From: Epibacterium ulvae
Lineage (GTDB): Bacteria; Pseudomonadota; Alphaproteobacteria; Rhodobacterales; Rhodobacteraceae
Direction: 5' to 3'
Assembly (NCBI RefSeq): GCF_900102795.1
Contig: NZ_FMWG01000002.1
Span: 372,001-436,000, forward strand
Length of the DNA stretch: 64,000 bases
Positions 59,461-64,000 of this stretch are shown piece after piece. The translations under genes and the position numbers were made by a program. Within the stretch, counting starts at the first letter, position 1. Every line of letters starts with the position of its first letter. The notes under the pieces are model-generated. The model did no database searches, was not told the DNA's origin, and saw only the letters and a list, made by a program, of their open reading frames with translations.

Positions 59461-59540
59461 GTTTTCCCCCATTGTCATGTTCCAGACAGTGCTAAGCGAG
59501 GGGAGGGATGAACATGCGGCCGATCACCATGTGTTCAGTT

Positions 59541-59626
59541 CCGTTCCCTACGCCGGTATTGCCCGGATCAGGTTCGATGGGTTAGCACAGTGCCTCTCAG
59601 CCCTTGTAAAAGGGCACCCCAACGGA
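59541..59626 (-). promoter_or_regulatory. TPP riboswitch (THI element) upstream of the thi operon
   Basis: On the minus strand the conserved blocks are all present in order: GGGGTGCC, GGCTGAGA, CGAACCTGATCCGGG and GTAGGGAA. The thiD start is 81 bases downstream. Thiamine diphosphate binding should repress the thi operon, at the level of translation or transcription. In the 80 bases to thiD no strong terminator hairpin with a U tract is evident, which favours control of ribosome access. Confidence 0.95.
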
Positions 59627-59640
59627 TCAAAGCGAACTTA

Positions 59641-60184
59641 AACGCGAAAGGGGGGCGTTAGCAAGTGAAATTTAAGATCTGATATAACACATTAAAAACA
59701 GTATCTTAGGTTTTATTTTGCGAGTTCTGTGAGCGGCAAATTGTGCAGTGCGTTTAAGCGTGGCTCCTATGATGGATGGGGGCGACGCTTTCTGAAACCC
59801 CTTATTTTATTCGGACAATGTGGCGCTGTTAAATTTTGTAGCACTGATTTGTAGCACGGGGCCGCTTATGTGGAACCTGTTTAGTGCAGATTAGCAACCA
59901 ATCCGCAGGAATTTATTGCCTGATTGAGTTGTTAAACTTCACGTGCGAATTGACACCGATCTGCTGACCCGGCTTTTTACTAAAATCTACACTAAGATTC
60001 CCCGTGTTGCGAGCGGTATCCCGCCGTCTGCGGTGCCGCCGAGCAGCCAAATAAAACCGTCGATTGGGAACTGGAAGAACCCACGTTTGATTTGCATTAA
60101 CAACCGCCTAAATCCTAGGAATTCTTGCCGAATGTTGATTTTTGATCTCAAAGCTTTCGTCGAAACACGTTCAATTTGCAATTT
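59641..60184. other. Non-coding junction between thi operon and accessory island
   Basis: About 540 bases without a convincing gene, turning clearly AT-richer. Short frames (plus 59943-60224, minus 59987-60181) overlap each other and have no recognised family; the minus one (MQIERVSTKALRSKINIRQEF) may be a remnant. A tandem 10-base repeat lies at 59835-59857. The thi operon promoter should be close to 59640-59750. Confidence 0.5.
59835..59857 (+). repeat. Tandem 10-base direct repeat near the island edge
   Basis: TTTGTAGCAC occurs twice, 13 bases apart (59835-59844 and 59848-59857), separated by TGA. Short direct repeats at an island boundary are reminiscent of integrase arm-type sites, but no integrase gene is in the window. 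No flanking duplication was found. Confidence 0.5.
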
Positions 60185-60302
60185 ATGGTTGAATATACTT
60201 TTAGGTAGCGATACGTTGCTTTGAACGAGACTCTGCCTCGCACAACGCGTTGTCGTAACTGCGACGTGAGATTAAAAGTTATACTATATCAGCCAAACCA
60301 TG
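60185..60302 (+). ncRNA. Candidate retron msr-msd RNA
   Basis: Upstream of the reverse transcriptase, ATGGTT (60185-60190) pairs with AACCAT (60296-60301) and ACTTTTA (60197-60203) pairs with TAAAAGT (60273-60279), a two-part long-range stem like the a1/a2 repeats of retrons. Just after the first arm is TAGC (60206-60209), like the conserved AGC with the priming guanosine. Inside are a CGTT/AACG hairpin (60214-60227) and a longer stem with CTC/GAG and TCGCA/TGCGA (60231-60270), a possible msd. The enclosed part, about 70 bases, is short for an msr-msd, so the boundaries are uncertain. Confidence 0.45.
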
Positions 60303-60340
60303 GTGATTTGACACTTCATGGCGAAAGGAGGCGGTGTCTC

Positions 60341-61921
60341 GTGCCAACTGCCATTTCTGTAGCGTTTGGGAAAACGCCGACGCCCCCGGTAGAATTTTCC
60401 AGTATGGCCGCACTGAAAACTCACCTCAAGATTTCGGATAAGGAACTTTTGGTAATTCGGAAGCATCGTTCCAAGATGTATTCCCATTTCATCATTCCCA
60501 AAAAGTCGGGAGGGGTTCGGTTTATTGACGCGCCGAAGCCTCGCCTTTTGTATCTGCAAAGGCGTTTGCTCGAAGTTTTAGTGAAAATGCACAAGCCCAG
60601 AAATCCAGTTCACGGTTTTGTGCGGAAACGGTCGGCAATTACGAACGCCGAGGAGCATCTCAACCGAAAACATGTAATGAACATCGATTTAAAGGACTTC
60701 TTTCCTACTATTACACAAGACCGGGTTTCCAGTTTACTTCGCATTCTTGGTATACCCAGTGATGTTCGAGCAGCCATTTTGTCGATATGCTGCGCAAATG
60801 GTCGATTGCCTCAAGGAGCGCCCACGAGCCCCGTTTTCTCAAATATGATATGCCTCCGCATGGATCGACAGTTGATGGGATTTTGCAAGACGCGCCGCAT
60901 CAAGTACTCACGCTACGCTGATGATTTGACATTCTCTTTGTACACTGCCCCACATCAACTTTTTTCGGAGAGTGTTCCAAGCCCCGGAAAGCTGGCATCA
61001 AGCCAAATTTCACGAGAACTTAAGTCGATAATTTTGGATAATGGATTTGTTCTGAACGAAGATAAGCTCAGGTATTTTGGCCCTTCGTCGAGAAAAGAAG
61101 TTACTGGTCTGATAGTCTCAGATTTTGTCAACGTACCGCGCAAGTTTGTCAGGAATATTAGAGCCACCATTTTCGACATCGAGAAAAATGGGTTTCCTGC
61201 TGCTCAGATTAAATTCAGCACGCTATATCGGAAGACAAATCCCCTATCTGAACACCTGCGTGGAAAGATTGTATAGATCTCCCAGGTGAAGGGCTTAAAT
61301 GATGCTGTCTACTTGGGCCTCGCGCGCCGCTATAACAACCTTTTCCCTGATAAATCATTGGAAATTGGATATAGTAAAGGGGAGATCAGAGATCTTGCAA
61401 ACTGGATTCTCGAAAAAGATGCGGACACTCCAGAAACTTCCGATCAAGGCAGCGCGTTCTTTCTCAAAAATATTGGTCTTGTAACGGCCTTCCACTGTAT
61501 TAAAGGGGCAAAAAGAATTGAAGTTTTCCATCCTCATGAACCTGAAAAACGATTTACAGTTTCGGTCAGGAAGAGTTGCGAGCATAGGGATTTGGCGATA
61601 CTCGACCACGCTGTTCCTGAGAGTAAGTACCTGAGCCTCGAAATGATAGACAGGCGCATGCGGACAGGTGATGCTGTTCAAATTGTAGGATATCCCTCTT
61701 TTGGACCGGGCAGCAGTCTCCAAGTGCGCGAAGCTAAAATTGTTTCCCAATAAACCAAATCGGCGGTAAAACAACTGTTCGTTGAAGGGGAAATTAACCA
61801 AGGCAACTCAGGTGGTCCTCTTGTTGACCAATTGGATCGGGTTGTGGGTATCGCCCATAAAGGTGGACCGAATGAAGCAATTGATGTTGCAATTTCTATT
61901 CAAGAAATCACCACTCTATAA
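60341..61921 (+). pseudogene. Retron reverse transcriptase fused in frame to a trypsin-like protease, interrupted by two stop codons
   Basis: GTG 60341 follows AAAGGAGG by 9 bases. The frame runs 526 codons to TAA 61919 but contains TAG at 61274 (codon 312) and TAA at 61751 (codon 471). Retron RT hallmarks: NAEEH (102-106), NIDLKDFF (114-121), LPQGAPTSP (156-164), YADD (192-195), VTG (254-256). The RT C-terminal end, LRGKIV-stop-ISQVKGLND, is split by the amber codon. The protease part has His385 (TAFHC), Asp417 (HRDLAIL) and Ser490 (GNSGGPL), the serine lying after the second stop. RT-trypsin fusions are a described retron architecture; this copy looks inactivated unless the stops are read through or are sequencing errors. 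Confidence 0.85.
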
Positions 61922-62163
61922 TTTAAAAAATCAATTAAGGTATAGTTGATCCCTTTCCGCCGGCAGTCTATCTTCCGACCCCCGCTTAGAGATAATTGTG
62001 TTTCACAGTATGAAACAACGTCTTCAATCGGCAACCGGTGCCTAAACTCTCGAATTTCATCACATCCGAATTGAGGCAAGTTGGGGGTGTAGCGGCATGA
62101 CAAAAAGATGTTGATCGGGCCTATCTTTTTTGAGCCGTGCACAAATAAGGACCAGCAATCCAT
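61900..62163 (-). CDS. Uncertain small ORF beyond the retron
   Basis: 87 codons, convergent with and overlapping the end of the protease frame by 22 bases. No family recognised; the translation (KIGPINIFLSCRYTPNLPQFG in its first third) is not low complexity, so it could be a remnant of a larger gene. There is no clear ribosome site. Coding status doubtful. Confidence 0.25.
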   Translation of the reverse strand: MDCWSLFVHGSKKIGPINIFLSCRYTPNLPQFGCDEIREFRHRLPIEDVVSYCETQLSLSGGRKIDCRRKGINYTLIDFLNYRVVIS

Positions 62164-62262
62164 TGCTTTTTATGTTTTGGTTCTTGATGAATAAACGATC
62201 ATACCTTGAACACGCTGCGAATGAGGAAAATTAACCTCTTTGTTCGATCAAAAGCAGTTTTC

Positions 62263-62522
62263 TCATTCAGACGTAAATTCTTTCAATCTGGCAACTGCTG
62301 CAACACGTTGCTGCTCAATATACAGTGCCAACTGAGGCAACGCTACATTGCTTCTTCGCATTGATTTCTTTTGATCGTTAAAGAAGTCAAGTTTGATCTT
62401 TCCTTTCTTGATTTTTGGTCGAGAGCCTCCGGTTCAAGCCCGAAATATTCTCGTGCCATCTGAGCGAATGGGATCTCTTCGCTACCATCACGACGTGCCA
62501 ACAGCAGCATCAGTGTTGTCAT
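62263..62522 (-). pseudogene. Second PrtN-like pyocin activator gene, frameshifted
   Basis: ATG 62522 starts 7 bases after the stop of the intact PrtN-like gene. The first 38 or so codons (MTTLMLLLARRDGSEEIPFA, then REYFGLEPEALDQK) parallel the PrtN N-terminus. Near 62403-62410 the matching frame jumps by one base: the continuation KGKIKLDFFNDQKKS and ALPQLALYIEQQRVAAVARL is in another frame, ending at TGA 62263. In its own frame the ORF ends soon with a foreign tail. A single-base indel explains this; sequencing error is the alternative. Confidence 0.65.
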
Positions 62523-62529
62523 GATTTTT

Positions 62530-62787
62530 TCAATGCCCCATCAGCTTCAATTCTTTTTCAGCAGCATGTCGGGCATCAATGTAATCTGCGAAGTCAATCA
62601 GATGGATACCCTTGGCGCATTTTTGGCTTTCTTCCTCTATGAGAACGAGTGGAAGCTTAATTTGCCCAGCTCGGATTTTCTCATGGAACTTCCCAACAGA
62701 AAGTTCGAACCAATCCTGCGCGACCTTTTCTGAATCGATGATTGCCTGTGCGTTGTACATTGCCATCATCATAATTGCTGTGTTCAT
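62530..62787 (-). CDS. Pyocin activator protein PrtN family regulator
   Basis: The protein has 85 residues from ATG 62787, with AGGAAA upstream. The sequence fits the PrtN family: an N-terminal MNTAIMMMAMYNAQAIIDSE, then WFELSVGKFHEKIRAGQIKLP, and the conserved end SQKCAKGIHLIDFADYIDAR with a lysine-rich helix. PrtN of Pseudomonas activates pyocin genes by binding P-boxes; homologues in islands and prophages control mobile genes. The target here is not visible. A second, frameshifted copy follows at once. Confidence 0.82.
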   Translation of the reverse strand: MNTAIMMMAMYNAQAIIDSEKVAQDWFELSVGKFHEKIRAGQIKLPLVLIEEESQKCAKGIHLIDFADYIDARHAAEKELKLMGH

Positions 62788-62838
62788 TGGATTTCCTCGT
62801 ATTTGACGGCCTGTTTTTTTGGGGGCCGCCTGGGTTTG

Positions 62839-62867
62839 AAAAACCGCCACCCAAGGCGACGGTTTTG
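62839..62867 (-). terminator. Terminator upstream of the prtN pair
   Basis: On the minus strand AAAACCG pairs with CGGTTTT (with CGCC/GGCG alternatives inside) followed by T's. It lies about 100 bases beyond the stop of the gene at 62965-63378 and 50 bases before prtN, so it likely ends the former transcript. Confidence 0.6.
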
Positions 62868-62964
62868 AGGAAATGGTGCGAAGCCGTATTTTCGGAAGAA
62901 AGTTTGTTAGTAGGTTTGAATCCTATCTTGGCTGCGACTGTATTCGTCGCTGTCAAGACTATGT

Positions 62965-63378
62965 TCATACTTCCGCCAACAGTCTTTCAGTCTCTCTGAT
63001 CGCGGCAAGCTTGTCGTCGAGCGCTCTTTTGGCTTTTCGGACTTGGCGCCAGCACCAGGCCAGGTTCACCAAGTCGATCCCTTTAACATCGCAAAAGTGC
63101 TCGGTATCGACATCTCTGACCAATGCCTGGTCGCCCAGGCCGCTTCTGTAGTCGTTTGTGAAATGCCTGATCTGCTCGCCTATTATCCCGATGCGCTCAT
63201 CATCAATGTCTTCGAGGCCGCTCCGTTCGCAGAGGCTGTTGAGAAGCGACAGGACGAAGGGGCGAGTAATGCCTTGCGGCACAAGGCCAACTTCACGCCA
63301 TTCTTGCGCCTAAAGTCGCCCCTGAGAAATCACAGCCAAAACCAGTTCATGCGTTTCGTGTTCGATTTTTTCATCCAT
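62965..63378 (-). pseudogene. Island gene with in-frame amber codon near its start
   Basis: ATG 63378 follows the strong ribosome site GGAGGA by 6 bases. The frame MDEKIEHETHELVLAVISQG is cut by TAG at 63310-63312 (codon 23) and then continues in the same frame for 115 codons to the stop at 62965 (VPQGITRPFVLSLLNSL, LVNLAWCWRQVRKAKRALDD). The second part could be restarted at GTG 63282. No family recognised; the C-terminus is helical and contains cysteines (EHFCDV, LAWCW). It looks like a gene broken by one substitution. Confidence 0.6.
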
Positions 63379-63397
63379 TTTTGTTCCTCCAATGGGT

Positions 63398-63418
63398 GAG
63401 GCCACGATGCGTGGCCTC
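63398..63418. terminator. Perfect hairpin between two minus-strand island genes
   Basis: GAGGCCACG pairs with CGTGGCCTC around ATG, a 9-base perfect stem. There is no T tract on either strand. It lies between the remnant at 63460 and the ribosome site of the next gene, so it may terminate or separate transcripts. Confidence 0.5.
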
Positions 63419-63459
63419 TCAAGGCGCCGGTGGAAGGAGTTACCCACCGACGGTTGCGC

Positions 63460-63687
63460 TCAGGCGGCGCGCGGGAAGTCCAGGCGATCAGCGGTTCGGA
63501 GTAGAACATCTTGGAAGGCATTAGCCAGTAGACAGAGGTCTTCGACATAAGGTGCTGCTGGATCGAGATCTGCAAAATGAGCCGACTCTGGTCGGCTGAA
63601 GTCGTGCACATGCTCAAGGGTGAGCAGCTCGTGCAGGCGTACCAAGCCTTGGCTAAGGAAGGGTTCGATTGGGTCTGGTGCGAACAT
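63460..63687 (-). pseudogene. C-terminal remnant of an unrecognised minus-strand gene
   Basis: The last 45 or so codons (ESAHFADLDPAAPYVEDL, then LLANAFQDVLLRTADRLDFP) look like genuine protein. The first part, right of about 63600, overlaps sequence that codes on the other strand for a helicase and is therefore probably foreign. This suggests a junction near 63585-63610 that removed the original start. Family unknown. Confidence 0.45.
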
Positions 63688-64000
63688 GCGCTGACCATCG
63701 GTTATCGCCCTTCTCTAACCGAAATTGTGCAAATCATTGGCCGCGCAACACGAGACGCCCCCGGCAAGCTAGGGGCGGTTTTTACAAATCTTGTTGCGGA
63801 GCCGGGTGTCGAGACTGGTTGGTCGTAGCAGATGCCGTCAACGACATGTTCAAGGCGATCTCGGGCTCGCTGCTGATGGAGCAGGTGCTGGCCCTCAATT
63901 TCAAATTCTACCGCCGTGAAGATGGCGATATCCGAGAACCTGTCGAAACCGACGGTCAGGGCAATGTGATGATCGGTATCAAGGGTCTTGTAGAGCCGCC
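63577..64000 (+). pseudogene. Truncated, frameshifted DEAD/DEAH-type helicase fragment running off the right edge
   Basis: The frame from 63577 encodes VQAYQALAKEGFDWVWCEHA, then LTEIVQIIGRATRDAPGK, a superfamily 2 helicase motif VI, and FTNLVAEPGVETGW before TAG at 63826. A matching continuation (VVADAVNDMFKAISGSLLMEQVLAL and beyond) lies in another frame from about 63817 to the window end, so one T was probably lost near 63814-63818. The N-terminal helicase domains are absent, replaced by the unrelated remnant to the left. Confidence 0.7.

Follow-up and report, generated by a model that had tools for sequence, protein, structure and literature searches.

A type XI retron of Epibacterium ulvae, very probably inactivated recently, on a decaying island between thiD and dus

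An interrupted reverse transcriptase-protease frame and its relatives

The window, by which we mean the whole 64,000-nucleotide stretch of DNA analysed, contains a single forward-strand frame at 60341-61921 that starts with GTG and comprises 526 codons and a terminal TAA (527 codons in total). The frame is interrupted by TAG at codon 312 and TAA at codon 471 and has no other internal stops; the remaining two frames over the same interval contain 24 and 32. An earlier note on this DNA, made from the letters alone, had described a frame of this length and with these stops that links a retron reverse transcriptase (RT) to a trypsin-like protease. Splitting the frame at its stops and searching the three pieces separately (codons 1-311, 313-470, and 472-526) bore out this description, as the PADLOC RT-Protease_XI model (PDLC02960) matched all three pieces in register (Table 1). 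The RT piece contains NAEEH at codon 102, YADD at codon 192, and VTG at codon 254, which correspond to the retron RT motifs NAxxH, YADD, and VTG named in that note. The frame also encodes His385, Asp417, and Ser490, so that all the motifs and the complete protease triad named in the note were located, including those beyond the stops.

The middle piece additionally gave weak matches to the PADLOC models for LmuA (3.9e-07), HamA (0.0004), and Avs1b (0.023). Two NCBIfam models for unrelated proteins scored on the RT piece, but their 16 bits fall far below the cut-offs of 175 and 199.5, no stretch passed, and we regard both as chance matches. Promoter and terminator scans were at or below chance.

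To place the first stop in the protein, we used an AlphaFold2 model of an intact relative from genome G236 (locus L070; mean pLDDT 81.4, pTM 0.47). In this model W313, which corresponds to window codon 312, lies within a helix (303-318), and two further helices (323-335 and 347-354) come between this helix and the first protease strand. The predicted structure therefore agrees with the note that the TAG cuts the C-terminal part of the RT. That the second stop removes the nucleophile serine was also correct, as the TAA at codon 471 precedes Ser490.

The locus shares with type XI retrons, a name that reportedly goes back to Mestre et al. in 2020, a single gene for a retron RT followed by a trypsin-like protease. 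When profiled together, the relatives gave matches to solved retron RTs, the best with an E-value of 4.2e-57, and a structured noncoding RNA (ncRNA) with a1/a2 repeats, a feature of type XI, lies next to the gene. The match to RT-Protease_XI upholds the earlier assignment to a described type of RT-trypsin fusion. However, type XI retrons have an uninterrupted gene, while here two premature stops interrupt the frame that encodes the RT and the C-terminal protease with its His, Asp, and Ser, and no fused protein would be made by ordinary translation. Judged from its sequence, the locus is a pseudogene of the type XI family rather than a working member.

We searched for relatives at several levels. 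The source genome (G000; 3.99 Mb, a draft assembly of 30 contigs) and 17 further genomes of the genus contained no second DNA-level copy of the frame. A search of 394 genomes of the family, with up to three candidates scored per genome, gave matches in 45 genomes at an E-value of 1e-40, most of them other retron RTs. Among the matches listed, internal stops occurred in 2 of 52, both in the source genome, and those near whole-model length were from G382, G206, G236, G185, G304, and G000. A first scan of genome contigs gave no match. From a second scan (alignment A1) we took the best 80 of 405 confirmed candidate loci and examined 23 of them in one pass and, in another, the 32 whose match extends past query residue 485. 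None of these 32 has an in-frame stop in the matched stretch, although strongly broken copies may be under-represented in a selection of the best 80 of 405 loci. This result refutes the alternative, raised in the note, that homologues end at codon 312.

Alignment of 15 alphaproteobacterial relatives (A4, which excludes L087 and more distant sequences) revealed sense codons at both stop sites in all 15: the equivalent of codon 312 encodes W, F, or Y, and that of codon 471 encodes Thr or Pro. The start lies at the same site in the relatives as in the window and is GTG (TTG in L076; the GTG of L079 was missed by the search pattern and placed by hand). Four relatives share the architecture, start, and similar length of the window frame and are 46-48% identical to it in the RT part: L070 (46%), L084 from Flavimaricola marinus, L074 from Litorivita pollutaquae, and L073 from a Haematobacter massiliensis plasmid. 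Unlike the window frame, all four are uninterrupted, and the L070 gene (8035-9615), at 526 aa, is identical to it in length. A relative close enough to date the lesions was not found in viral contigs, nor at 60% or more protein identity in plasmids or phages, nor, at an E-value of 1e-60, in 385 genomes of the class other than the source genome itself; records very near the source genome may be absent from these collections.

Table 1. Positions of the features in and around the interrupted retron (window coordinates unless a locus or contig is named)
Feature	Position	Strand	Evidence
TPP riboswitch just upstream of thi operon	59528-59631	-	RF00059, 81.7 bits
Left boundary candidate: two TGTAGCAC motifs (59837, 59850)	59837..59857	+	recurs near dus 5' end
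Putative msr-msd ncRNA, ~120 nt	60224..60343	+	covariance model, fold, covariation
a1 arm	60225-60239	+	closes ncRNA with a2
a2 arm	60328-60342	+	closes ncRNA with a1
Shine-Dalgarno-like GGAGG and GTG start, overlapping a2 arm	60327..60343	+	sequence, fold, relatives' start site
RT part (codons 1-311), TAG at end	60341..61276	+	PDLC02960 3.1e-105; PF00078 (RVT_1) 3.9e-19
Premature TAG, codon 312	61274..61276	+	W, F or Y in 15/15 relatives
Rest of RT C-terminal part and first protease half (codons 313-470), TAA at end	61277..61753	+	PF13365 4e-07; PDLC02960 3.3e-35
His385 codon (61493), Asp417 codon (61589)	inside 61277..61753	+	codon positions
Premature TAA, codon 471	61751..61753	+	T or P in 15/15 relatives
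Protease end (codons 472-526) with nucleophile Ser490 (61808), terminal TAA	61754..61921	+	PF00089 1.7e-05; PDLC02960 6.5e-11
PrtN/excisionase-like gene of island	62530..62850	-	PF11112 2.1e-16; phrog_1300 excisionase 2.4e-19
DEAD/DEAH helicase remnant, truncated and frameshifted	63649..64000, on to L023 8506	+	relative comparison
TGTAGCAC motif, both orientations, near dus 5' end just outside window	L023 8846-8883		motif search
Second type XI RT-protease retron	G000 C20:489767-491112 (L022 5765-7146)		PADLOC type, DNA comparison with G185

The island between thiD and dus

The retron lies in a stretch of ~5.4 kb between thiD, which has a TPP riboswitch, and dus; both gene names were assigned from the sequences. 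The matched parts of these two genes are separated by ~425 bp in G015, ~3.3 kb in G003, and ~7.5 kb in G001. Since spacing and content differ among these genomes, the site is a variable insertion site in the genus. The site spans window positions 59479-64000, and the insertions in G003 and G001 are larger and of different content, with that of G001 containing a tyrosine integrase and an excisionase-like gene.

The helicase remnant of the island corresponds to residues 353-647 of a 701-aa helicase from Kozakia and is divided between two frames that meet at L023 7820/7823; its best plasmid relatives are from Kozakia (67.6% identity) and Gluconobacter (62.3%). The excisionase-like gene is 32.5% identical over 83 aa to that of G001, while the G001 tyrosine integrase, used as a single probe, had no match in the window.

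The motif TGTAGCAC occurs five times in the 19.9-kb stretch L023, always at 59837-59857 or at the dus 5' end. G001 and G014 likewise have it next to dus, whereas it was not found in the examined stretches of G015 and G003. Among direct repeats of at least 14 bases in the island, none formed a convincing pair of boundaries. According to the part of the source on which we draw, dus-associated genomic islands carry an integrase at the dus 5' end and semiconserved 21-bp att repeats (PMC4482086). The island in the window has repeated TGTAGCAC motifs at both ends and an excisionase-like gene, but no match to the one integrase probe, that of G001. The TGTAGCAC repeats may be attachment remnants.

An upstream RNA that overlaps the translation start

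Directly upstream of the frame lies a structured RNA, putatively the retron msr-msd from its position and form. A long stem closes its predicted fold, which also contains a conserved hairpin and additional stems (MFE -40.5 kcal/mol, z -3.17); 2 of 200 shuffled sequences folded as well. A covariance model (R1) built from 12 relatives, with the window left out, found the window RNA at 53.1 bits (E-value 1.8e-10, as rough as such values are). The underlying alignment (A3) excludes the window, L078, L084, and L086. Over 15 distinct rows, window included, covariation was 0.232 compared to 0.145 for shuffled alignments, none of 500 of which scored as high; as the rows are related sequences, this count is not a probability. 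In the same rows 94.0% of pairing cells can pair, and both sides have changed in 11 of 28 pairs.

R1 matched 2 of 13 sources tested, the window and L086, with no match at the second retron of the source genome, G185, G304, or eight more distant relatives, so our claim for this ncRNA is limited to one clade. Within that clade the same ncRNA is carried by L070, L074, L084, and L085 (another H. massiliensis record). In the source genome R1 had one significant match, that in the window. Of known RNA families, the window contains, besides the TPP riboswitch, two matches that are both below gathering scores. PADLOC includes models for msr-msd RNAs, as stated in the part of its description on which we draw (PMC9252829).

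The a2 arm of the closing stem overlaps the GGAGG and extends over the first two nucleotides of the GTG codon. Start and 3' arm coincide in the window and the aligned relatives (L070, L074-L085, and L088) except L086, in which the matched RNA extends past the start codon. Such an arrangement, with the Shine-Dalgarno sequence inside the closing stem and the stem reaching the start codon, suggests translational control in this clade: when paired, the a2 arm would hide the start site and could thereby control translation of the RT-protease. In the literature searched we found no paper linking retron msr-msd inverted repeats to a ribosome binding site.

Timing of the presumed loss and alternative readings

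Since the TAG comes before the protease and the TAA before Ser490, ordinary translation would yield no active protease, even after re-initiation. By analogy with other retron types, the RT of a working relative would copy the ~120-nt ncRNA into msDNA. The fused HtrA-like protease would be held in check by the complex of RT, ncRNA, and msDNA until interference by a phage sets it free to kill or arrest the cell. In the window, translation would halt at the TAG within the RT C-terminal helices, and any product re-initiated behind it would end at the TAA before the nucleophile serine. The 311 codons ahead of the TAG encode an almost complete RT, which might retain activity. The function of the system in the cell has presumably been lost.

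To ask how eroded the frame is, we counted how many of the columns that are invariant in all other representatives it keeps, leaving out L078 and L084 as near-duplicates. The window keeps 66 of 72 such columns in the RT, 18 of 25 in the middle piece, and 8 of 11 at the end; L086, the most divergent intact relative, keeps 66 of 76, 18 of 28, and 8 of 12. For the protease part this amounts to 26 of 36 in the window and 26 of 40 in L086. The mean identities to the other representatives in the three parts are 0.453, 0.400, and 0.423 for the window and 0.425, 0.356, and 0.346 for L086. By these measures the frame is no more eroded than one somewhat more divergent intact relative. As the stretches behind the stops are no worse kept than in L086, the stops are probably late events. 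Among the remaining twelve representatives, which resemble one another more closely, almost no invariant columns have been lost (26 of 26 to 28 are kept in the protease part). Since L086 is therefore the one sequence that carries the comparison, some relaxed constraint in the protease part may have preceded the stops.

A frame no more eroded than that of L086, together with a ~120-nt ncRNA whose covarying pairs are kept, makes the inactivation look recent. Both appear still to bear the constraint of a working system, which would place the loss late in the history of the gene. We thus consider it very probable that the locus is a recently inactivated RT-protease fusion retron of type XI, carried by the decaying island that separates thiD from dus. 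The earlier note had named three readings: recent inactivation, which is well supported, and read-through by suppression and two sequencing errors, both of which our results disfavor.

That the retron is intact and both stops arose as errors of base calling or assembly would fit the draft state of the assembly and the intact remainder of the frame. However, turning any Thr or Pro codon, the kinds found at position 471 in all 15 aligned relatives, into TAA takes at least two base changes (the ancestral residue of the window may differ), and both the island helicase and the other type XI retron of this genome are broken as well, the former by truncation and frameshift and the latter by a deletion. 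Open reading frames of at least 100 aa cover 90% of the window, with three gaps of more than 350 bp ahead of 59478, and this coverage argues against errors throughout. The second retron belongs to another subclade. It is close to the intact retron of G185 (DNA identity 87% across 958 bp and 82% across another 655 bp), whose RT part is 37% identical to that of the window. Although of the same PADLOC type as the window copy, it differs in its lesions: compared with the G185 gene, it has a deletion of ~290 bp, with a frameshift, that takes in the YADD region. Two retrons of different subclades with different lesions in one genome favor biology over base-calling, and we hold errors to be a very improbable explanation. 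That ribosomes pass the two stops of the frame by read-through or suppression, perhaps in a regulated way, is less credible still. Its conservation past each stop would be expected, but the search for suppressor tRNAs proposed in the note, run over the whole genome, found 46 tRNA genes, none with a CTA, TTA, or TCA anticodon. Moreover, two different stops in series would allow very little product, and all 15 aligned relatives have sense codons at both positions. The 60 open reading frames of the window, which include two pieces of the retron, end in TGA (27), TAA (23), or TAG (10). With no suppressor tRNA and a second stop that removes the nucleophile serine, read-through is unlikely. An alternative genetic code was rejected, as all three stop codons terminate reading frames in the window.

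The locus could also have shed its protease, such that the truncated RT and the intact ncRNA still make msDNA, with or without a role. The complete RT motifs, the retention of the ncRNA with pair-preserving changes, and the length of 311 aa, which compares with 310-330 aa for several stand-alone retron RTs of solved structure, are in line with this idea. Nevertheless, the stop falls inside the predicted helix 303-318 of the L070 model, the island is decaying, and preservation of the RT relative to the protease is not clearly better than in L086, as differential constraint would predict. We therefore think a protease-free remnant scarcely likely. The same holds for a broader proposal, in which the stem occludes the start throughout the clade so that its folding controls translation of the fused toxin, and the ncRNA and truncated RT of the window form a protease-free retron that makes msDNA.

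Under recent inactivation, the window copy is unexceptional as a dead member of a known retron type, and its RNA partner is unusually well kept. With the turnover of anti-phage islands, pseudogenized defense systems are expected, and the authors of PADLOC, in the part of their description on which we draw, state that many putative defense genes are annotated as pseudogenes (PMC9252829). The source genome provides a clean example, with two type XI retrons of different subclades both dead, the window copy apparently for so short a time that its ncRNA can still fold. Of more use is the ncRNA of an alphaproteobacterial type XI clade, which has covariation support and a stem overlapping the translation start. 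While the pseudogene itself is ordinary, this overlap deserves follow-up in the intact relatives.

Trypsin-like domains are also fused to defense enzymes in the trypsin-MBL nuclease modules of Hachiman, AVAST, Lamassu, and DRT systems, according to the part of the source on which we draw (PMC12799240). In the modules described there, the protease is N-terminal and has as its partner an MBL nuclease gene located upstream, whereas the window protease is C-terminal; we noticed no MBL nuclease gene in the lists of open reading frames around the window, L068, or L070. The literature searched contained no paper on the type XI retron protease or on serine-protease retrons with RT-DNA.

The second retron lies near serine recombinase and RepB/ParB genes and what we take to be an IS3-like transposase. 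Unlike the window copy, the intact relatives in G382, in G236, and on the Haematobacter plasmid do not lie between thiD and dus. In G382 and G236 the retron is divergently paired with a pAgo system consisting of a REase-PNTD partner and pAgo_I (L068 9120-11917 and L070 9928-11474), and the pAgo frame of G236 ends after about the first 70 profile positions. In Haematobacter massiliensis, plasmid pOT1-2 carries its intact type XI retron next to a Gabija GajA gene (L073 4642-6882).
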